Assembly (NCBI GenBank): GCA_023473795.1
Contig: JAMCYS010000001.1
Location: forward strand, 1 to 52,695
Length of the DNA stretch: 52,695 nt
Source: Chloroflexota bacterium
Lineage (GTDB): Bacteria > Chloroflexota > UBA6077 > FW602-bin22 > JAMCYS01
Reading direction: 5' to 3'
Positions 9,683 through 22,330 of the stretch are shown here, piece by piece (position 1 is the stretch's first letter; every line of letters begins with the position of its first letter). A program made the position numbers and the translations under genes. Below the pieces are notes generated by a model. It was not told where the DNA came from. It did no database searches and saw nothing but the letters and a program-made list of their open reading frames with translations.

Positions 9683-9716
9683 CAAGAGGGGCGCCCCGGC
9701 CGGGGCGCCCCTCTTG
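9683..9716. terminator. Perfect 34-bp palindrome, terminator of the first YeiH pair
   Basis: CAAGAGGGGCGCCCCGG and CCGGGGCGCCCCTCTTG are exact inverted repeats with no spacer, ending the minus-strand transcript of the small membrane gene at 9790-9912 before the mmsA promoter. Confidence 0.75.
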
Positions 9717-9742: not shown

Positions 9743-9867
9743 CCAGGGAATCTTGCCCACTAGCATGTTGCCGGCGATGTACAGGACGACTAGGGCCACG
9801 TACCCCAGGGAATCTTACCCACCAGCATGTTGCCGGACATGGCGACGTACAGGACGATTAGGGCCAC
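9743..9867 (-). repeat. Near-perfect tandem duplication within the small membrane gene
   Basis: Bases 9743-9799 and 9805-9867 are two copies of one segment; the second has six extra bases (ACATGG) and a few substitutions. On the minus strand both copies encode VAL(I/V)VLY(V/I)A...GNMLVGKIPW, but the five-base junction puts the downstream copy out of frame. Confidence 0.9.
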
Positions 9868-9912
9868 AAACCCCAGTACTACTGCCATCCAGTCTTCAGT
9901 CAGCTTTAGCAT
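9790..9912 (-). CDS. Small single-pass membrane protein, partner of YeiH-type transporter
   Basis: A 40-residue protein beginning MLKLTEDWMAVVLGFVALIV and ending GNMLVGKIPWGTWP, with one membrane helix at about residues 9-25. It starts 11 bases after the YeiH-family stop with a GAGGT ribosome site overlapping that stop, so it is probably translationally coupled. A downstream duplicate of its last 19 codons (with its own TAA after GKIPW) lies out of frame: the ancestral protein probably ended at IPW and a segmental duplication moved the stop. No family is recognised. The second YeiH gene is likewise followed by a small one-helix protein, which supports it being real. Function as an accessory subunit is inference. 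Confidence 0.65.
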   Translation of the reverse strand: MLKLTEDWMAVVLGFVALIVLYVAMSGNMLVGKIPWGTWP

Positions 9913-9922
9913 TGCATCAACC

Positions 9923-11020
9923 TCACTTGATTGGGAACAGAACGCCGAAGATCATATAGGACACCAGCAAGCCGAGCGCCGCATTGAAGACCGTGGCGAC
10001 GGCGTAGATACCCAGCGGCTTGCCGCCGAGCTTGCGTAGCTCCCCAAAGGCGAACTCGAGGCCGATCGAGACGAAGGCCATCGTGAGGAAGATGTTGCGG
10101 AGGGTCGTGACGTTGTCGCCGATCCCCTTAATGCCGGCGAAGACGCCGATGGTCACTAGAATAGACGTGACGATGAAGCCCAGCACGAATTTGGGGAAAC
10201 GGTACCAGATTTCCATCGCGCTAGGCTTCTGATCGGGCTTGCGCTCGACGACCATGACCCAGTAGAGGGCCAGGAGGAAGGCCGCCACGCCGATGAGGGC
10301 GTTCTGCGACATCTTGACGATGGAGGCCGTGGTCATCGCCCCTTCGCTGTGGATCGCGCCCGCGCCCACCACCGCCGCGGTGGTATCGATGTTACCGCCG
10401 ATCCAGGCGCCGGCAACCGTGGTCGATAGTCCCATCTGGTTCGCCGCCCAGGGCATGAAGAACATCAGCGGCATAGCGAAGAGGATCACCAGTGTGGTCA
10501 CGTACGCCAGCTGCTCTTTCTTGGCCAAGACAGCGCCCGAGGCGGCGATGGCCGCGGACACGCCGCAGATGGACACCGAGGCGGACATCAACGCCCGCAA
10601 CTTCTGGTCGACCTTGAAGAGGCCGCAAATCCACCAGGTGAAGAAGAAGACGCAGGTGATCATGATGACCGCCTGCACAACGCCGCCGGCGCCGACCCTC
10701 AGGACTTCACTGATGTTGATCGTGGCGCCCATGATCACCAGGCCGGTCTTGAGGAAGAGCTCGGTCCTGAAGCCCGCGCTCGCGTACTGCTTGGTCCCGG
10801 TCATAACGAAAACCGCGCTCGCCAAGAGGCCAAGCACTACCGCGGCGATGGGATACTCGACGACGCCCCGACCCCCGAAGAAGGCCCTGTTGCTCCAGTT
10901 TGTCAGCCACTGGGCGAGCCAGGCGAGCACAAAAACGATAACCACGCCGATGACGAATCTTTGCCAGTTAGATAGGCCGGATGGTCGCTCCTTCTGCAGT
11001 TCGATTGCCTGCTGTCCCAT
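9923..11020 (-). CDS. YeiH/UPF0324 family putative sulfate exporter, copy 1
   Basis: 365 residues, about ten hydrophobic segments, of the conserved hypothetical family annotated as YeiH or 'putative sulfate exporter'. Family motifs are ASVSICGVSAAIAASGAV, the LKTGLVIMGATIN loop and WIGGNIDTTAAVVGAG; the C-terminus has FRNIFLTMAF-like TLRNIFLTMAFVSIGLEF. The start at 11020 is preferred over a GTG 41 codons upstream because it follows GGAGGGACAC at good spacing and gives the normal family length. Biochemical proof of sulfate export is weak for the family; related proteins occur with sulfonate and taurine degradation. It has its own promoter at 11178-11206 and forms a pair with the small gene after it. 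Confidence 0.88.
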   Translation of the reverse strand: MGQQAIELQKERPSGLSNWQRFVIGVVIVFVLAWLAQWLTNWSNRAFFGGRGVVEYPIAAVVLGLLASAVFVMTGTKQYASAGFRTELFLKTGLVIMGATINISEVLRVGAGGVVQAVIMITCVFFFTWWICGLFKVDQKLRALMSASVSICGVSAAIAASGAVLAKKEQLAYVTTLVILFAMPLMFFMPWAANQMGLSTTVAGAWIGGNIDTTAAVVGAGAIHSEGAMTTASIVKMSQNALIGVAAFLLALYWVMVVERKPDQKPSAMEIWYRFPKFVLGFIVTSILVTIGVFAGIKGIGDNVTTLRNIFLTMAFVSIGLEFAFGELRKLGGKPLGIYAVATVFNAALGLLVSYMIFGVLFPIK

Positions 11021-11177
11021 GTGTCCCTCCGTTACTCCTTTGTTCTGATTGAGGATTTGCCTCAACCGAAGCAGGTTGGCCGCCGGCATCGCCGGCCACT
11101 TGTGAACGGCGTAAGACAGTAGGTCGCGCGCCTTCTCTTCCACTCCCTGTTGCCTGGCACCACCTCCTCAGCTGCAG

Positions 11178-11206
11178 ATTATTGGGCATAGATGGGCAGC
11201 TGTCAA
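11178..11206 (-). promoter_or_regulatory. Sigma70-type promoter of YeiH copy 1
   Basis: Minus-strand TTGACA, a 17-base spacer and AATAAT. The predicted 5' leader is about 150 bases. Confidence 0.65.
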
Positions 11207-11284
11207 GCAGTCGCTGGTATAAGCATGTGGCATGTTTATCACAAATTTAGCGATTGTGCGCCGAGGGGGTTACAGAAACAGACA

Positions 11285-11358
11285 GGGGGAGCCACACGGT
11301 GGCTCCCCCAAGTGTCAGAAGCAAGTCGCCACGCCGGGCCGCGCCCGGCGTGGCGACT
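11285..11358 (-). terminator. Double hairpin ending the YeiH copy 2 transcript
   Basis: Two perfect hairpins: AGTCGCCACGCCGGGC with GCCCGGCGTGGCGACT (11324-11358), which begins at the stop codon of the small gene, and GGGGGAGCCAC with GTGGCTCCCCC (11285-11309), followed on the minus strand by TGTCTGTTTCTG. Confidence 0.8.
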
Positions 11359-11536
11359 ACCTGAAGAACAGATTGCTGACGACGACCAGCACTACTAGTA
11401 GAGTCACGCCCAGACCGATGCTCCAGGCGATCAGCTTCTTCTCGACCGGCAGCAGTGGTTCGTAGGGGATCTTGCCCATTTCCTCGGCCAGGTTGGGCTC
11501 GGCCGCGGGCACGGGCGCCTTTATTGATTGTTGCAC
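11357..11536 (-). CDS. Small single-pass membrane protein, partner of YeiH copy 2
   Basis: A 59-residue protein read from GTG at 11536 behind AAAGGAGAAGAAA. It has a Pro/Ala-rich start (QQSIKAPVPAAEPNLAEEMG), the stretch KIPYEPLLPVEKKLIAW and a single C-terminal helix (IGLGVTLLVVLVVVSNLFF). It begins 29 bases after the YeiH copy 2 stop and ends in the terminator hairpin. It has no evident sequence similarity to the 40-residue partner of copy 1 apart from a 'GKIP' motif, but size, topology and position are the same. No known family recognised. Probably a small accessory subunit or stabiliser of the transporter. Confidence 0.72.
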   Translation of the reverse strand: MQQSIKAPVPAAEPNLAEEMGKIPYEPLLPVEKKLIAWSIGLGVTLLVVLVVVSNLFFR

Positions 11537-11565
11537 TTTCTTCTCCTTTGCTCCTTCAACCTACC

Positions 11566-12999
11566 CTACGCCAGCGGCGGCTTGACGCCGTTGAAGAACA
11601 GGTAGGAGATGAAAAGGCCGATCCAGATGATGAAGCCAAACAGGGAGAGCACGTAGACCAGCGCCAGCTTGCCGATGCCTTCCTGCCACAGCTTCTTGAA
11701 GTTGGACATCACGCCCAGGGTGAAGAAGGTCATCACGAAGAACAGCACCCGGAAGATATTGCTCTCTGCAGTGGCGATCTTGGCCTGGTTCAGTAGGCTG
11801 GGCGAGTTGACCGCCAGGACAAGGAATAGCACGAAGGTGATGACGTAGCCGATGACGAACTTCGGGAACCGCTCCCAAATCTCGATCGCGCGGACCTTCT
11901 CGCCTTTCTCCTTGTCGATGACGTTGGCCCAGACAAGGGCCAGCACGAAGGCCCACACGCCGATGAAGACGTCGATGAACGTCTTCACCGTCGTCGTGGC
12001 CATCAGGATCCAGCCTTCCTTGTAGTTCACGCCCTGCTCGGCCAGGGCCCTAGCCCTGATCAGCGAGTCGGCGACTGCGCCGCTAGCGGTGGCCGCGCCA
12101 TCGGTCTTCACGGCTAGGCCCATCCAGGCACCGGCTACCATCGGCTCTTGGAACAGGAACGTCTGTGCCAGGAAGGGGAGGATCAGCAGTTCGACTACTG
12201 CGAAGATCACGACCAGTGAGGAAACCATGATCGGCACGATCGGGCGCGCCCGGATGGCACCACCAACCGCGATGGCAGCCGAGACGCCGCAGATCGAGAT
12301 GCCGGCGGCCAGAGGCGCCGCCCACTCGCGGCTGAACTTGAAGAACTTGCGGGCCACCAGGTACACCAGCGCCCAGTAGATCAGGTAGGCTTCGATGATG
12401 GCGGCCAGGCCGCGGAACATCACCTCAGTGGCCAGACCAAGGGCGCCGGCGGCCTGCACGCCCAGGGACGCGCCCAGAATCACGATGGCTGTGCGGATGT
12501 ACCACTCAGGCTTGATGCCTTCCTTGAGATAGTCCGCGAAGCGGGGGAAGAAGTTGCCTACGATCAGGCCGCCGAGCAAGGCCACCACGAAGCCCGCCTC
12601 GCCCGTCAGCCTCAGCGTCCAGGGCACGCTCTTGTAGAGCGCAACATCGGGGGTGGCGGCGATGTAGGCCACGTTGCCGATGACCCAGCAGGCGTAGCTC
12701 AGCCAGAAGATGATGGTGAAGCTAACGGCGAACTTCTTCAGGTTGAGGTTCAACGCTACAGCGCCGAGGCTCATGATAACCAGCAAGAAGAGATAACTGA
12801 GGACGATTGAGAGCACGCCGGGAAGTCCGGCGTAGTTCTTCGAGACTGGCTCGAAGGCCTTGCCCAGGTCGAGCCAGATGTTTGTCTTGACCGCGAAGCC
12901 CAGCAAGTCGACGTTGACCATCGTGAACAGGGCCAACACTACGACCGCCAGGCCGATCCACAGGGCCATCCAGTCATCGTTCTTGAACAGTGAACGCAA
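11566..12999 (-). CDS. YeiH/UPF0324 family putative sulfate exporter, copy 2 (long form)
   Basis: 477 residues with about twelve hydrophobic segments. It shares AAGISICGVSAAIAVGGAI with copy 1, plus IRTAIVILGASLGVQAAG, VAGAWMGLAVKTDGAATASG and WERFPKFVIGYVITF. It is about 110 residues longer than copy 1, mostly at the N-terminus, where extra membrane segments (WIGLAVVVLALFTMVNVDLL, LSIVLSYLFLLVIMSL) are added. The start is TTG at 12999, five bases after AAGGAGGG; a frame extension to 13029 lacks a ribosome site. It lies directly downstream of the response regulator gene, so regulation by that two-component system is likely. The substrate is not known. Confidence 0.88.
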   Translation of the reverse strand: MRSLFKNDDWMALWIGLAVVVLALFTMVNVDLLGFAVKTNIWLDLGKAFEPVSKNYAGLPGVLSIVLSYLFLLVIMSLGAVALNLNLKKFAVSFTIIFWLSYACWVIGNVAYIAATPDVALYKSVPWTLRLTGEAGFVVALLGGLIVGNFFPRFADYLKEGIKPEWYIRTAIVILGASLGVQAAGALGLATEVMFRGLAAIIEAYLIYWALVYLVARKFFKFSREWAAPLAAGISICGVSAAIAVGGAIRARPIVPIMVSSLVVIFAVVELLILPFLAQTFLFQEPMVAGAWMGLAVKTDGAATASGAVADSLIRARALAEQGVNYKEGWILMATTTVKTFIDVFIGVWAFVLALVWANVIDKEKGEKVRAIEIWERFPKFVIGYVITFVLFLVLAVNSPSLLNQAKIATAESNIFRVLFFVMTFFTLGVMSNFKKLWQEGIGKLALVYVLSLFGFIIWIGLFISYLFFNGVKPPLA

Positions 13000-17452: not shown

Positions 17453-19489
17453 CTACGCCTCTACGGCCGGGTTCGGATCTAGCCCCTTCTCGGCCGCCAC
17501 CTTCTGGTATAGCTCCTGCCATTTGGTGGCTTCCGCTTCGGCCTTGCGCTGGAGGTTGAGCCGCAGGTCGGGGTCGACCAGCGCCTCGTAGAGGATCGCG
17601 CCCTCGGCCTGGTGGGGCATCGGGATGCCGATCAGGTAAGCGATGGTCGGCGCCACCGAGGTCAGGTAGGCCATACCCTTGAGGTGCAGGCCCTCTTTCA
17701 CGTTCGGTCCGGCCAGGAAGAAGATCGAACGAATTGAGATGTCCTTCACTCGCGAAGTCGGCAACTCCCGGCCGTGCTCGCCGTCGGCTTCCGGCCGCAC
17801 GGCGAAGATGACGTCGCCGACCCGGTCGCCATAGTGGCCGATCAGCTCCGCCTCGTGCTTCTTCAGCACTATCTGGAAGGCGTGCTTGCCGCTCTTCGGG
17901 TGCCTGTAGGACTTCATGGCCTCGACGATCTCTTCCTGGACCTTGTCGTAGTCCGCTGGATCGACGATGCCATCGATGTCGCGACCCTTCAGGTTCACGT
18001 AAGCGTGAATCGTGCGCTGGACGAAGCCCTTGGTTTGCGACCAATCGACGACACGCTTGCCGTCCACGTTCTTATAGACGAGCAGTCCCGCCTCTTCCAG
18101 CGCCTTGTTAGGATCGATCACGCCCCAGGGTGAGGGGGTGGCGGAGTGGTCGGAGACGACGGCGACGAGCGTGTCCTCGTCGGCCAGGCTCATCAGTTCG
18201 CCCAGCATCCTGTCGATGGATTGGTAGTGGCGGGTATACCAGGAGGTGGCGTTGCGAATCTGGGCCTCGCTGGCGATGTCGGGGTCGAACTGCTGCATGT
18301 AGAAGTGGTTGATGTAGTCGCCGCAGTGCGTCTCCACGTACAGTAGGTCCCAGGGTTTAGTCGAGGTCAAGTACCTGGCTGCCTTGGCCAGCCACTGGTG
18401 CTGGTAGTCCTGCAGCTCGTAGTAGGTGCGCTCGTCGATCCACTCGTAGTGCAAGGCGTCGCGAGCGGGGTTGGTGAAGAAGGGGCCGACGTTCTCGTAC
18501 AGTTCCTCGCCCAGCTCCAGCGGCTGGGTGTAGCCGGAGACGGGCCACAGCTGGGTAGAGAAGAGCTCCATCTCGCCGCCGTCGCGGTTGAGGTTCATCA
18601 GCTTGAAGCGGAACGTGCCCTTGGTGTTGCCCTGGGGCATCAGACCTTCTCGGGTGCGCTGTTCCAGGGTGGCGCGCACCTGAATGTCCTCTTTGCCGCG
18701 ACGATCGCTGGCGCGCAGCTTGGCACGGTCCGCGACCCGCTGAGCCATCTTCTCCTGGTCCACCGTCATGTCGAAGGTGTCGGTTACCCACTCCGACCAC
18801 TGTCCCGAGCGCATGCTGGCCACGGGTTGGGCGGCGTCTTTCTCCTTACAGACCAGCACCGTATCGTAGCCCGAGCCCTTGGATTTCGCGACGAGCAGCT
18901 GGTAGGTGTGTTCGTTGCCGCCGTAGAGCGAGAGCACGACTCGGCCTTCCAGAGCCTCCCACTTCGGGTCAAGGTTCTGCCAGCCCTCGGCGGGTTTGAG
19001 ACGCAACAGGTCGGTCAGGGGTAGCTCTTCGGTGGTGTGCAGGCGCACGGGTCCCAACTCGAAGTAGTTGACGACGCCCGGGCCGCAGCCTTCGATCTGG
19101 AGGCCGTTGTGGCAGGGCGGCCAGGAGACCTCCCACTTGATGAGGATGGGCTTCTTGCCGGCACGCTCAGCCGCCTGCCAGATGTACTCAGCCCGGCACT
19201 TGCGGGTGTCGATGCCCAGGTGGGTCTTGTCCAGCGATTCTTCCGGCTCGTTGGGCAGGTAGAAGTCGGTGATGCCGTGGGTGCCCGGCCAGGCGCCCGT
19301 GGTGATGGTCGTCCAGTTGGGCGGGGTGATGGTGGGCAGCGGCTCGATGATCTCCTTGAAGATGCCCTTCTTCATCATCTTGTCGAAGTTGGGCAGCTTG
19401 CCCTCGCCGACGAAACGCTTGATCAGTTCGGGGTGACCGCCGTCGATGCCCAGAACGATGACCTTCTTCGCTTCTTTCGCTTCTGCCAT
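17453..19489 (-). CDS. Type I phosphodiesterase / nucleotide pyrophosphatase family hydrolase, copy A
   Basis: 678 residues of the alkaline phosphatase superfamily. All metal and nucleophile positions of the nucleotide-pyrophosphatase group can be matched: Asp16 in VLGIDGG, the probable nucleophile Thr55 in LPTITPPNW, the DxxxH pair in ETHCGDYINHFYM, the DH of VVSDHSATPSP and the His of IPMPHQAEG. A large insertion of about 300 residues separates the two halves and must form the substrate cap. There is no signal peptide, so it acts in the cytoplasm. ATG at 19489 follows GGAGCTGCAC. It is a paralogue of the gene at 20288-22330 and is preceded by an OsmC gene, as that one is. The family includes phosphonoacetate hydrolase, phosphodiesterases and phosphomutases; the substrate is unknown. 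Confidence 0.88.
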   Translation of the reverse strand: MAEAKEAKKVIVLGIDGGHPELIKRFVGEGKLPNFDKMMKKGIFKEIIEPLPTITPPNWTTITTGAWPGTHGITDFYLPNEPEESLDKTHLGIDTRKCRAEYIWQAAERAGKKPILIKWEVSWPPCHNGLQIEGCGPGVVNYFELGPVRLHTTEELPLTDLLRLKPAEGWQNLDPKWEALEGRVVLSLYGGNEHTYQLLVAKSKGSGYDTVLVCKEKDAAQPVASMRSGQWSEWVTDTFDMTVDQEKMAQRVADRAKLRASDRRGKEDIQVRATLEQRTREGLMPQGNTKGTFRFKLMNLNRDGGEMELFSTQLWPVSGYTQPLELGEELYENVGPFFTNPARDALHYEWIDERTYYELQDYQHQWLAKAARYLTSTKPWDLLYVETHCGDYINHFYMQQFDPDIASEAQIRNATSWYTRHYQSIDRMLGELMSLADEDTLVAVVSDHSATPSPWGVIDPNKALEEAGLLVYKNVDGKRVVDWSQTKGFVQRTIHAYVNLKGRDIDGIVDPADYDKVQEEIVEAMKSYRHPKSGKHAFQIVLKKHEAELIGHYGDRVGDVIFAVRPEADGEHGRELPTSRVKDISIRSIFFLAGPNVKEGLHLKGMAYLTSVAPTIAYLIGIPMPHQAEGAILYEALVDPDLRLNLQRKAEAEATKWQELYQKVAAEKGLDPNPAVEA

Positions 19490-19542
19490 TGTGCAGCTCC
19501 AAATACAGAGTGCGAGTACCCTCTCCAGAGGGAGTGTCTTTG

Positions 19543-19722
19543 GGGTAGTGCGGAGGCTCGTCCCCCGCGGTCTCATCGGGAATGCCGCCGGAACGGGGAG
19601 CGGACTCAAGTCCGCACTACGAACGACGTAGAGCCCGCGTTTGTAGTAAGGGATTCAGCCCTTCCGATCCCTCCTCAGAAAACCGCCACTAGAACCGCGG
19701 GGGACAAGCCCCCACGCTACGG
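19543..19722. repeat. Cluster of short palindromic repeats between OsmC copy 1 and phosphodiesterase A
   Basis: GTAGTGCGGA (19543-19552) and TCCGCACTAC (19611-19620) are inverted; CGGACTCAAGTCCG is a small palindrome; ACCGCGGGGGACAAGCCCCC followed by ACGCTACGG (about 19693-19722) recurs in similar form at 43599-43618. These are dispersed palindromic units, not coding. Confidence 0.65.
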
Positions 19723-19723
19723 T

Positions 19724-20161
19724 CTAGGAGGCCGCTTCTGCCGCCACGATCCGTATCTTGTGCACCAGCTTGGCCGTGCGGGAGATGGTGTAATGCGCGG
19801 CGCAGTACTTGTCTTCCACGAGGGCCAGGGCACGTTTGACGGCCGCCTCGTCGATGCCGCGACCGGTTATGGTGTGTTCCAGGACGATCTCGGTATAGGC
19901 GGTAGGCGGCTCGTCCGCGCGCACGCCGTCCAGGTTGATCTCGTAGCCGGCGATGTCCTGGTGCATGCGCCGCAGAATGTGGAGCATTGCCCCGCCCAAG
20001 CAACCACCCAGGCTGAGCAGCATGAGTTCCATCGCCCGGAAGCCGGCGTTCTGCCCGCCCTGATCGGTGGGTCCGTCGATGATCAGCGTATGCCCGCTGC
20101 CCGAGCGGGCCCGCCAACGGGCGGGTCCGTCCAGTCGGACGGAGCCGGTCATCCTTGCCAC
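19724..20161 (-). CDS. OsmC family protein, copy 1
   Basis: 145 residues with the OsmC/Ohr fold. The two redox cysteines are in LLSLGGCLGGAM and EDKYCAAHYT, at normal positions, so thiol-dependent hydroperoxide reduction is possible. It shares the sequence plan of the second copy (MELMLLxLGGC, YTEIVLEHTITG, SRTAKL). Start is GTG at 20161 behind AGGAGGCAACC. It lies between the two large phosphodiesterase genes on the same strand. Confidence 0.9.
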   Translation of the reverse strand: MARMTGSVRLDGPARWRARSGSGHTLIIDGPTDQGGQNAGFRAMELMLLSLGGCLGGAMLHILRRMHQDIAGYEINLDGVRADEPPTAYTEIVLEHTITGRGIDEAAVKRALALVEDKYCAAHYTISRTAKLVHKIRIVAAEAAS

Positions 20162-20230
20162 GGTTGCCTCCTGGCAGTGCTGCCGCCGCCGGTGGGATGG
20201 AGACGGTAGGTCGGTGTGTGGCGCGAGCGA

Positions 20231-20262
20231 GGGGAGGAAGCCCGTTTGGGGGCTTCCTCCCC
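20231..20262 (-). terminator. Hairpin between phosphodiesterase B and OsmC copy 1
   Basis: GGGGAGGAAGCC and GGCTTCCTCCCC form a 12-bp stem. No U tract follows on the minus strand, so it may attenuate or protect rather than end the transcript. Confidence 0.45.
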
Positions 20263-20287
20263 GGTCGACACCCCGCGGTGGCGGGGC

Positions 20288-22330
20288 TTACAGGTCGCCC
20301 AACTCCGGCCGGGGGTTCAGATCGTACTCCACGGCGATGCCCCTGTAGAGGGCCCGCCAGCGGTCGCGCTCCTTCTCGGCCTTCTTGCGCATGGTGAGGT
20401 GCAAGTCGGGATCGACCAGCGCCTCGTAGAGCACCGCGCCCTCGGCCTGGTGGGGCATCGGGATGCCCATCAGGTAGCAGATGGTCGGAGTGACCTGGGT
20501 CTGGTAGGCCATGCGCTCCAGGCGCACCCCTTCCTTCACGTTCGGGCCCTTGAGGAAGAAGATCACCCGCATGTCGACGTCCTTGACGCGGGAGGTCGGC
20601 AGCTCGTGGCCGTGCTCCAGGTCCGCCTCCGGTCGGATAGCGTAGACGATATCGCCGACCCGGTCGCCGTAGAGCCCGATGAGCTCGGCCTCGTGCTTCT
20701 TCCAGACCATAGTGTACGGGTTCTTGCCCGACTTGGGGTGCTTGTAGGACTTCATCGCCTCGATGACTTCCTCGCGCACCGCCTCGTAGTCCTCCGGCTC
20801 GACGATGCCGTGCGGGTCGCGCCCCTTGACGTTGAGGTAGACGTAGATGGTCCGCTGGGGATAGGCCTTGGTCTGGGACCAGTCGATCACGCGCTTGCCG
20901 CTCTCGTCGGTCTTGTAGACCAGGAACCCCGCGTTCTCCAGTACCGTGCGGGTGTCCACGTAGCCCCAGGGGGAGGGCGTGCCGGCGTGGTCGGAGATGA
21001 TGCCCACGAGGGTGTCCTCGTCGGCCAGGCTCATCAGTTCGCCCAGCATCCTGTCGATGGATTGGTAGTGGCGAGTGAGCCAGGAGGTGGCGTTGCGAAT
21101 CTGGGCCTCGCTGGCTATGTCGGGGTCGAACTGCTGCATGTAGAAGTGGTTGATGTAGTCGCCGCAGTGCGTCTCCACGTACAGCAGGTCCCACTCACGG
21201 GTGGTCGTGAGGTACTTGGCGGCTTTGGCCAGCCACTGGTGCTGGTAGTCCTGCAGCTCGTAGTAGGTGCGCTCGTCGATCCACTCGTAGTGCAGGGCGT
21301 CGCGAGCGGGGTTGGTGAAGAAGGGGCCGACGTTCTCGTACAGTTCCTCGCCCAGCTCCAGCGGCTGGGTGTAGCCGGAGACGGGCCACAGCTGGGTAGA
21401 GAAGAGCTCCATCTCGCCGCCGTCGCGGTTGAGGTTCATCAGCTTGAAGCGGAAGACGCCCTTGGTCTTGCCCTGGGGCATCAGGCCCTCGCGGGCGCGC
21501 TGGGCCATGGTCAGGCGCGATTGGGTGTCCTGGCCTTCCTTCAGTGCGTAGCTCTTGACCTTAGCCCGCTCCGCCTCGCGCTCCGCCAGTTTCACCGGGT
21601 CGGGGGTCATGTCAAAGACGTCGGTGACCCACTCGGACCACTGGCCCATGCGCATCGTCGCGATAGGCTTGCTCGCATCCTTGTCCTTGAAGACCATAAC
21701 CGTGTCGTAGCCGGAGCCCTTGGACTTTGTGACGAGCGTGTGGTAAATCTGCTCGTTGCCACCGTGCAGGGCCTTGATTACCTGACCCTCCAGGGCCTCC
21801 CACTTAGGATTCAGGTTCTGCCAGCCCTCGGCCTGCTTGAAGTGGACCCGGTCGGTCATCGGCAGGTCCTCGGTGGTGTGCAGGCGCACAGGGCCCAGCT
21901 CGAAGTAGTTGACGACGCCCGGGCCGCAGCCTTCGACCTGGAGGCCGTTGTGCACCGGCGGCCATGAGACCTCCCACTTGATCAGGATCGGCTTCTTGCC
22001 GACCCTTTCGGCGGCCTGCCAGATGTACTCCGCCCGGCACTTGCGCGTGTTGAAGCCGTGCTGGATCTGGTCCAGGTCGTCGCCCGGCTCGTTGGGCAGG
22101 TAGAAGTCGGTGATGCCGTGGGTGCCCGGCCAGGCGCCGGTGGTGATCGTCGTCCAGTTGGGCGGGGTGATGGTGGGCAGGGGCTCGATCATCTCCTTGA
22201 AGACGCCCTGCTCCATCATCTTCTGGAAGTTGGGCAGCTTCCCTTCCTTGACGAAGCGCTTAATGAGCGCGGGGGAGCCCCCGTCGATGCCCAACATGAT
22301 TACTTTCTTGGCTTCCTTAGCTTCCGCCAT
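20288..22330 (-). CDS. Type I phosphodiesterase / nucleotide pyrophosphatase family hydrolase, copy B
   Basis: 680 residues, colinear with copy A. It has the same catalytic set: Asp16, Thr55 of LPTITPPNW, GDYINHF, IISDHAGTPSP and PHQAEG. The N-terminal MAEAKEAKKVIMLGIDGG has no signal peptide. The start follows GAGGAGAGAA. The middle of the gene is almost base-identical to copy A over two stretches (about 21010-21190 and 21224-21450), while flanking parts differ also at third positions, which points to gene conversion. Ends with NPRPELGDL. It follows OsmC copy 2 by 48 bases. Role as for copy A; the retention of two active-looking copies suggests related but different substrates. Confidence 0.88.
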   Translation of the reverse strand: MAEAKEAKKVIMLGIDGGSPALIKRFVKEGKLPNFQKMMEQGVFKEMIEPLPTITPPNWTTITTGAWPGTHGITDFYLPNEPGDDLDQIQHGFNTRKCRAEYIWQAAERVGKKPILIKWEVSWPPVHNGLQVEGCGPGVVNYFELGPVRLHTTEDLPMTDRVHFKQAEGWQNLNPKWEALEGQVIKALHGGNEQIYHTLVTKSKGSGYDTVMVFKDKDASKPIATMRMGQWSEWVTDVFDMTPDPVKLAEREAERAKVKSYALKEGQDTQSRLTMAQRAREGLMPQGKTKGVFRFKLMNLNRDGGEMELFSTQLWPVSGYTQPLELGEELYENVGPFFTNPARDALHYEWIDERTYYELQDYQHQWLAKAAKYLTTTREWDLLYVETHCGDYINHFYMQQFDPDIASEAQIRNATSWLTRHYQSIDRMLGELMSLADEDTLVGIISDHAGTPSPWGYVDTRTVLENAGFLVYKTDESGKRVIDWSQTKAYPQRTIYVYLNVKGRDPHGIVEPEDYEAVREEVIEAMKSYKHPKSGKNPYTMVWKKHEAELIGLYGDRVGDIVYAIRPEADLEHGHELPTSRVKDVDMRVIFFLKGPNVKEGVRLERMAYQTQVTPTICYLMGIPMPHQAEGAVLYEALVDPDLHLTMRKKAEKERDRWRALYRGIAVEYDLNPRPELGDL

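Follow-up and report, generated by a model that had tools for sequence, protein, structure and literature searches.

The closest described relatives of the locus considered here belong to the Putative Sulfate Exporter (PSE) family, recognized by the Pfam model PF03601 (Cons_hypoth698/YeiH), of which one survey (PLoS Comput Biol 2021, PMC8396727) describes a PSE_2 form with 11 helices, two of them extra helices at the N terminus. The same text assigns the re-entrant-helix-re-entrant fold type also to LrgA/LrgB (including CidAB and PftAB) and to LysA/LysB, the split form of LysO, and notes that LrgAB and LysAB occur either fused or split (PMC8396727). Within this fold, PftAB is reported to be a hetero-oligomeric pyruvate transporter (PMC5626966), YeiH is the main sulfite resistance determinant of Salmonella (PMC12880088), and SuyZ/YeiH have been argued to be sulfite exporters (PMC11582611). 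We analyzed a 52,695-nucleotide stretch of a Chloroflexota contig (JAMCYS010000001.1, positions 1 to 52,695; here, the window) in which two transporters of this family, YeiH-A and YeiH-B, are each followed by a gene for a single-helix membrane protein, of 40 and 59 aa, respectively. Judged by its sequence, the 40-aa gene, previously unannotated, encodes in detached form the first N-terminal transmembrane (TM) helix, TM-a, which long PSE_2 YeiHs, YeiH-B among them, carry fused to the transporter. The features that bear directly on this finding are as follows.

11566..12999, minus strand: YeiH-B, a 477-aa PSE_2-type transporter (stop at 11566; TTG start at 12999 with AAGGAGGG)
12913..12990, minus strand: fused TM-a segment of YeiH-B (LFKNDDWMALWIGLAVVVLALFTMVN; profile match)
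9923..11020, minus strand: YeiH-A, a 365-aa PF03601 transporter core (ATG at 11020 with GGAGGG; stop at 9923)
9790..9912, minus strand: 40-aa mini-gene, standalone TM-a helix (MLKLTEDWMAVVLGFVALIVLYVAMSGNMLVGKIPWGTWP; ATG at 9912; its Shine-Dalgarno [SD] sequence, GAGG, overlaps the YeiH-A stop)
9743..9876, minus strand: partial tandem duplication of the 3' part of the 40-aa gene (62- to 68-base spacing, 89% identity)

TM-a is distinguished by the signature EDWW-A--xG...IPW, and the 40-mer (MLKLTEDWMAVVLGF...) resembles both the N terminus of the window's own YeiH-B (LFKNDDWMALWIGL...) and the N termini of long YeiHs from Zixibacteria, Thermodesulfobacteriota, Planctomycetota, Nitrospirota, and others (LWKKEDWWAIWLGF...). 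Circularity was avoided by the use of two separate profiles, one comprising only fused copies from other phyla and the other only standalone copies. Against 6005 open reading frames (ORFs) from the window and its phylum, 21 of the 22 hits of the fused-only profile at E values of <0.02 were fused or standalone versions of TM-a, with the window 40-mer recovered at an E value of 0.003; the remaining hit, a 113-aa frame of genome G333, is a weak match lying away from YeiH, and we set it aside as noise. In the other direction, the best 27 hits of the standalone-only profile against 4331 ORFs from loci of other phyla were all YeiH N termini. We take this reciprocal recovery to show that the standalone and fused versions of TM-a are homologous. 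Neither family of small proteins is matched by any Pfam or NCBIfam entry, and none of the papers found describes a YeiH small subunit, both of which bear out what a preliminary description of this DNA had supposed, namely, that a small-subunit requirement was undescribed and that the small genes could be widely missed.

Both transporters are recognized by PF03601 (163.4 bits for YeiH-A and 85.1 bits for YeiH-B; Pfam cut-off, 24.5). Their scores of 84.2 and 29.2 bits, respectively, lie below the NCBIfam cut-off of 232.6 bits for the YeiH subfamily model TIGR00698, as do those of two tested canonical homologues of the phylum (133 and 167 bits). Assignment to PSE_2 depends on a chain having two TM helices added at its N terminus, and YeiH-B, with three TM segments before the core anchor, has both, as do other long relatives, TM-a being the first of the two. 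YeiH-A has a single TM segment before the anchor, with TM-a encoded by the neighboring gene and the second extra helix, TM-b, absent, and a tree of the cores groups it with the PSE_2-type sequences. The number of TM segments before the anchor is one in canonical forms, one in split forms, and three in fused forms, from which it follows that TM-b is missing from the split forms. YeiH-A shares the core fold family of PSE_2, but its chain lacks both extra helices, TM-a being instead the product of a separate gene (30 to 83 aa across the split forms), an arrangement not described in the available portion of PMC8396727. In the Pfam search, no window protein matched the LrgAB/LysO models PF03788, PF04172, and PF03956.

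The linkage of TM-a to YeiH was followed systematically through 400 genomes of the phylum, most of which are assemblies that are incomplete or fragmented, and other phyla were sampled by one scan with peptide patterns that favor close relatives. A first profile made from three standalone seeds retrieved new standalone frames beside YeiH in G030, G081, G089, G124, G138, G145, G219, G329, G366, G374, and G396, the frame of G333 being the only clear standalone one away from YeiH. With an enlarged profile (A3), all 24 of 24 matches at E values of ≤1.2e-4 were in or beside YeiH (16 standalone and 8 fused), and the next in the list was noise at 2e-3. These genomes contain 64 YeiH loci, 23 of them with TM-a (16 separate and 7 fused), with the eighth fused copy, in G247, cut by a contig end. 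Within the TM-a clade, the association is complete both ways, and in 15 genomes besides that of the window, an orthologue of the 40-aa frame lies next to YeiH. Canonical YeiH/SuyZ proteins (TIGR00698, PSE_1) have the PF03601 core in common with these transporters, but TM-a was found neither fused to nor near any of the 41 canonical copies in the 400 genomes, nor with Escherichia coli YeiH. Hence, the general small-subunit requirement of the YeiH family raised in the preliminary description does not hold; the partner is limited to one clade. We propose a standalone TM-a family consisting of EDW(W/M/L)A--xG single-helix frames that adjoin a short core of the PSE_2 clade, with members in 16 genomes.

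A tree of 105 transporter cores, computed without the TM-a columns (unrooted; Shimodaira-Hasegawa-like approximate likelihood ratio support from a quick search), places the canonical YeiHs, including that of E. coli, on one side of a branch with support of 100 and all TM-a bearers on the other. The split forms, 12 of 12, constitute one group (support, 99), in which the two cases with a downstream mini-gene, the window's YeiH-A and its 73% identical relative from G019, are nested (support, 98). Explaining the four states (none, fused, upstream, and downstream) requires four changes on this tree, which is the minimum, against approximately 43 with shuffled labels. The single split group with its nested downstream pair suggests that the helix detached once in this sample and that the mini-gene moved later from the upstream to the downstream position; we regard the single origin as shown at the level of this tree. 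In most of the split clade, the mini-gene is directly upstream of the core, its stop overlapping or abutting the ribosome site of the latter (TAGGAGGAAAATATG in G093 and TAAGGAGTTAAGAAGTG in G219), whereas it is directly downstream in the window and in the one relative. In this clade, then, a domain carried fused in other relatives has changed its place in the gene order. As a separate observation, the plasmid NZ_CP095067.1 of Hymenobacter volaticus (L145, 3597-4873) carries a YeiH gene with an N-terminal EDW helix; a frame change divides this gene, which is absent from the PLSDB gene table, and the homologue may reflect an error, a pseudogene, or a second kind of split.

AlphaFold2 gave a confident model of the fused relative from locus L058 (59-row alignment; predicted local distance difference test [pLDDT] score of 90.5 and predicted template modeling [pTM] score of 0.88), with TM-a (residues 27 to 48) at pLDDT values of 91 to 96. 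YeiH-A alone was likewise predicted to fold with confidence (pLDDT, 90.9; pTM, 0.87). No relatives of YeiH-A were retrieved by phmmer among PDB chains, and the nearest PDB folds are those of the elevator symporter CitS, at a low TM-score of 0.43. Lysines and arginines number 30 on the N-terminal side of the TM-a helix and 8 on its C-terminal side, on the basis of which the N terminus is predicted to be inside. We consider it probable that the 40-aa gene contributes, in trans, the scaffold helix TM-a of a PSE_2-type YeiH and that its partner is an elevator-type transporter that exports sulfite or an anion like it. Under this proposal, TM-a would have been cut off into its own cistron in one clade, with TM-b absent; it would be translated in coupling with the 365-aa core, insert with its N terminus inside, and pack noncovalently on the scaffold domain of the core to yield a two-chain elevator-type exporter, the substrate of which would most likely be sulfite or a related sulfur oxyanion. 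The reassociation in the membrane, the scaffold role, and the substrate are all steps that we infer, and it would appear that, in part of the YeiH family, the transporter consists of two pieces, the second of which had been overlooked.

Several points weigh against this proposal. The physical association of TM-a with the core is deduced from the fused homologues and from linkage, and the A3 linkage counts hold partly by construction, many of the matches being within A3 itself, with the reciprocal profiles among the independent tests. TM-a is short (about 25 to 35 residues) and hydrophobic, so that its specificity depends on the EDW-A--xG signature together with linkage, and the window copy departs most from its relatives at the C terminus, where the tail is duplicated. 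Moreover, TM-b follows TM-a in the fused chains and is missing from the split forms, for which reason the packing may not be identical. Finally, the immediate neighbors in the window, a two-component system and an aldehyde dehydrogenase, name no substrate.

The preliminary description had assigned each YeiH its own tiny partner. Both small frames are indeed real, conserved, coding, and YeiH linked, but they do not represent a single partner in two versions: the 40-mer is a detached TM-a, and the 59-mer is unrelated to it. As YeiH-B already has a fused TM-a, the 59-mer is best understood as a second, lineage-specific single-helix accessory. We considered and rejected a single family comprising both, because YeiH-B has TM-a fused, there is no common motif, and each profile finds its own kind only. 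The 59-mer family is typified by the motif AEExxKIPYEPLLPVEKKLIAWSLGLG (PYEPLL-xEKKLIAWS) and, in the search of the phylum, was confined to G000, G003, and G009, where it is invariably directly 3' of a B-type YeiH; its orthologues thus follow YeiH-B in two genomes besides that of the window. A third family of small proteins, with the motif gIDAsalfYtEvE, follows about 35 to 39 of the 46 fused YeiH loci outside the phylum, accompanying most fused PSE_2 genes in Zixibacteria, Planctomycetota, and Thermodesulfobacteriota. These proteins have 70 to 105 aa with one helix near the N terminus, lie 0 to 400 bases downstream of the fused YeiH (L003-L048; e.g., after 5071 in L006 and after 4978 in L032), and their representatives have no Pfam or NCBIfam match. 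Kinship of the 59-mer with this family was also rejected, as the family had no match in the loci of the phylum. Evidently, this YeiH branch attracts small helical partners. Many one-helix bacterial proteins act as regulators or as assembly or stability factors, and the small proteins described here could likewise bind YeiH transiently rather than form structural parts of it. The repeated gain of small partners by the branch agrees with such a role, which is a fair account of the 59-mer; the 40-mer, in contrast, has its homologue within the transporter chain itself in close relatives and is present throughout its clade, which is a better fit to a structural piece than to an optional regulator, and we consider this explanation unlikely.

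The coding status of the small genes bears on two further alternatives. The ratio of nonsynonymous to synonymous differences per site (pN/pS) is 0.19 for TM-a (four relatives, 34 aligned TM-a codons) and 0.30 to 0.41 for the 59-mer, with synonymous sites near saturation. Values of 0.53 to 0.60 between distant small genes (winA-G019, G219-G396, and G366-G396) are near saturation and were left unused, and the G030/G042 pair is uninformative for dN/dS because the small genes are identical over the 36 codons compared. We take the TM-a ratio to show purifying selection at the codon level. The small frame is thus conserved next to YeiH orthologues across families and under coding selection (pN/pS of about 0.2 to 0.4), the two respects in which the preliminary description had proposed to put its claim at risk. 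An alternative is that the mini-gene is what remains of a fused gene now in decay, through frameshift, assembly error, or pseudogenization, and that the core works alone like the canonical nine-helix YeiH. Canonical cores do function without TM-a in Salmonella (PMC12880088), and, in the window copy, damage and duplication have affected the tail, of which the second, downstream copy reads, in another frame, YVALVVLYIAGNMLVGKIPW up to a stop (i.e., ...GNMLVGKIPW), suggesting that the ancestral protein ended ...KIPW like several relatives and that the GTWP tail seen today arose recently. In addition, the YeiH frames of G138 (C1:768666-769866; L134) and G161 (C4:147935-149076; L126) are broken by a stop or frameshifts beside an upstream TM-a mini-gene that looks open. 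Nevertheless, the split forms constitute one monophyletic group over many families, with ribosome sites of their own, gene orders that vary, and overlaps of stop and SD, and with purifying selection on the TM-a codons, all of which makes decay very improbable. That these are chance open frames in GC-rich DNA is hardly credible, for although short hydrophobic frames are common and many spurious ones occur in the six-frame lists here, the 40-mer and the 59-mer have orthologues beside YeiH in 15 and two other genomes, respectively, ribosome sites, and pN/pS values of 0.19 to 0.41 in most comparisons.

The detached helix has parallels among other membrane complexes. KdpF, CydX, and AcrZ are single-helix small subunits encoded beside, or acting on, a large membrane partner, as here, but none of them is known to be a separated version of a helix that sister transporters carry fused. 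LrgA/LrgB and LysA/LysB provide the parallel of a transporter core with a small membrane subunit, fused or split, although their auxiliaries have four (LrgA) or three (LysA) helices rather than one, such that the likeness is in arrangement only. If the TM-a partnership proposed here is correct, the alternation between fused and split forms known from LrgAB and LysAB would apply to a third family with this fold, in which the subunit is as small as it can be. As YeiH is widespread and newly tied to sulfite resistance, a clade in which a putative scaffold helix comes from a separate gene of 30 to 83 residues offers a natural test of the role of that helix, and expression of the annotated core alone could yield an incomplete transporter. 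A broader generalization, which we advance tentatively and would not put at even chances, is that a whole branch of the PSE/YeiH exporters consists of obligate two-chain transporters with a one-helix subunit missing from gene catalogues, that it keeps recruiting one-helix subunits (the 59-aa and IDAsalfYtEvE families), and that small-helix partnership is general to the re-entrant-helix-re-entrant fold.

Regarding the putative substrate of the clade, sulfite or a related oxyanion is likely, given the literature on YeiH and the gene neighborhoods of relatives: a sulfite-reductase-like gene, TusA, and Cys/Met enzymes in G192, Cys_Met_Meta_PP and PALP in G042, and TauE in G219. Another of these neighborhoods is that of G054 (L139, 4678-9028), in which a fused PSE_2 YeiH immediately precedes two genes of the sulfite reductase type (dsrA/dsrB-like) and one for DsrC, a dissimilatory sulfite reductase context.

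The remaining features of the two units are listed below; the order on the minus strand is two-component system, YeiH-B, 59-aa gene, hairpins, YeiH-A, 40-aa gene, palindrome, and aldehyde dehydrogenase.

15850-13203, minus strand: two-component system
11357..11536, minus strand: 59-aa single-TM gene after YeiH-B (GTG start, AAGGAG 6 bases upstream)
11324..11358, no strand assigned: 16-bp hairpin after the YeiH-B/59-aa pair (-38 kcal/mol, z -7.1)
11285..11309, no strand assigned: second hairpin, 11 bp, between the two transporter units (-24.5 kcal/mol, z -5.2)
9683..9716, no strand assigned: perfect 17-bp palindrome after the YeiH-A/TM-a pair (-42 kcal/mol, z -5.1)
9472-7949, minus strand: aldehyde dehydrogenase

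The arrangement given in the preliminary description, in which each YeiH gene is followed by a single-helix gene and each pair by a hairpin, was recovered here, with gaps of 29 bases from the YeiH-B stop to the 59-aa frame and 10 bases from the YeiH-A stop to the 40-aa frame. The start of YeiH-A was corrected to the ATG at 11020, giving 365 rather than 406 aa, and the TTG start of YeiH-B at 12999 agrees with the earlier end coordinate. All four genes are preceded by ribosome sites (GGAGGG for YeiH-B, AAGGAG for the 59-mer, GGAGGG for YeiH-A, and GAGG for the 40-mer), and both small frames contain a single strongly hydrophobic stretch (Kyte-Doolittle means over 19 residues of 2.42 and 2.73 for the two frames). 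The three hairpins lack strong U runs; a role as terminators is plausible. Elsewhere in the window (17453-22330), two adjacent similar genes code for large proteins (718 and 680 aa) with the look of the phosphodiesterase/alkaline phosphatase superfamily.

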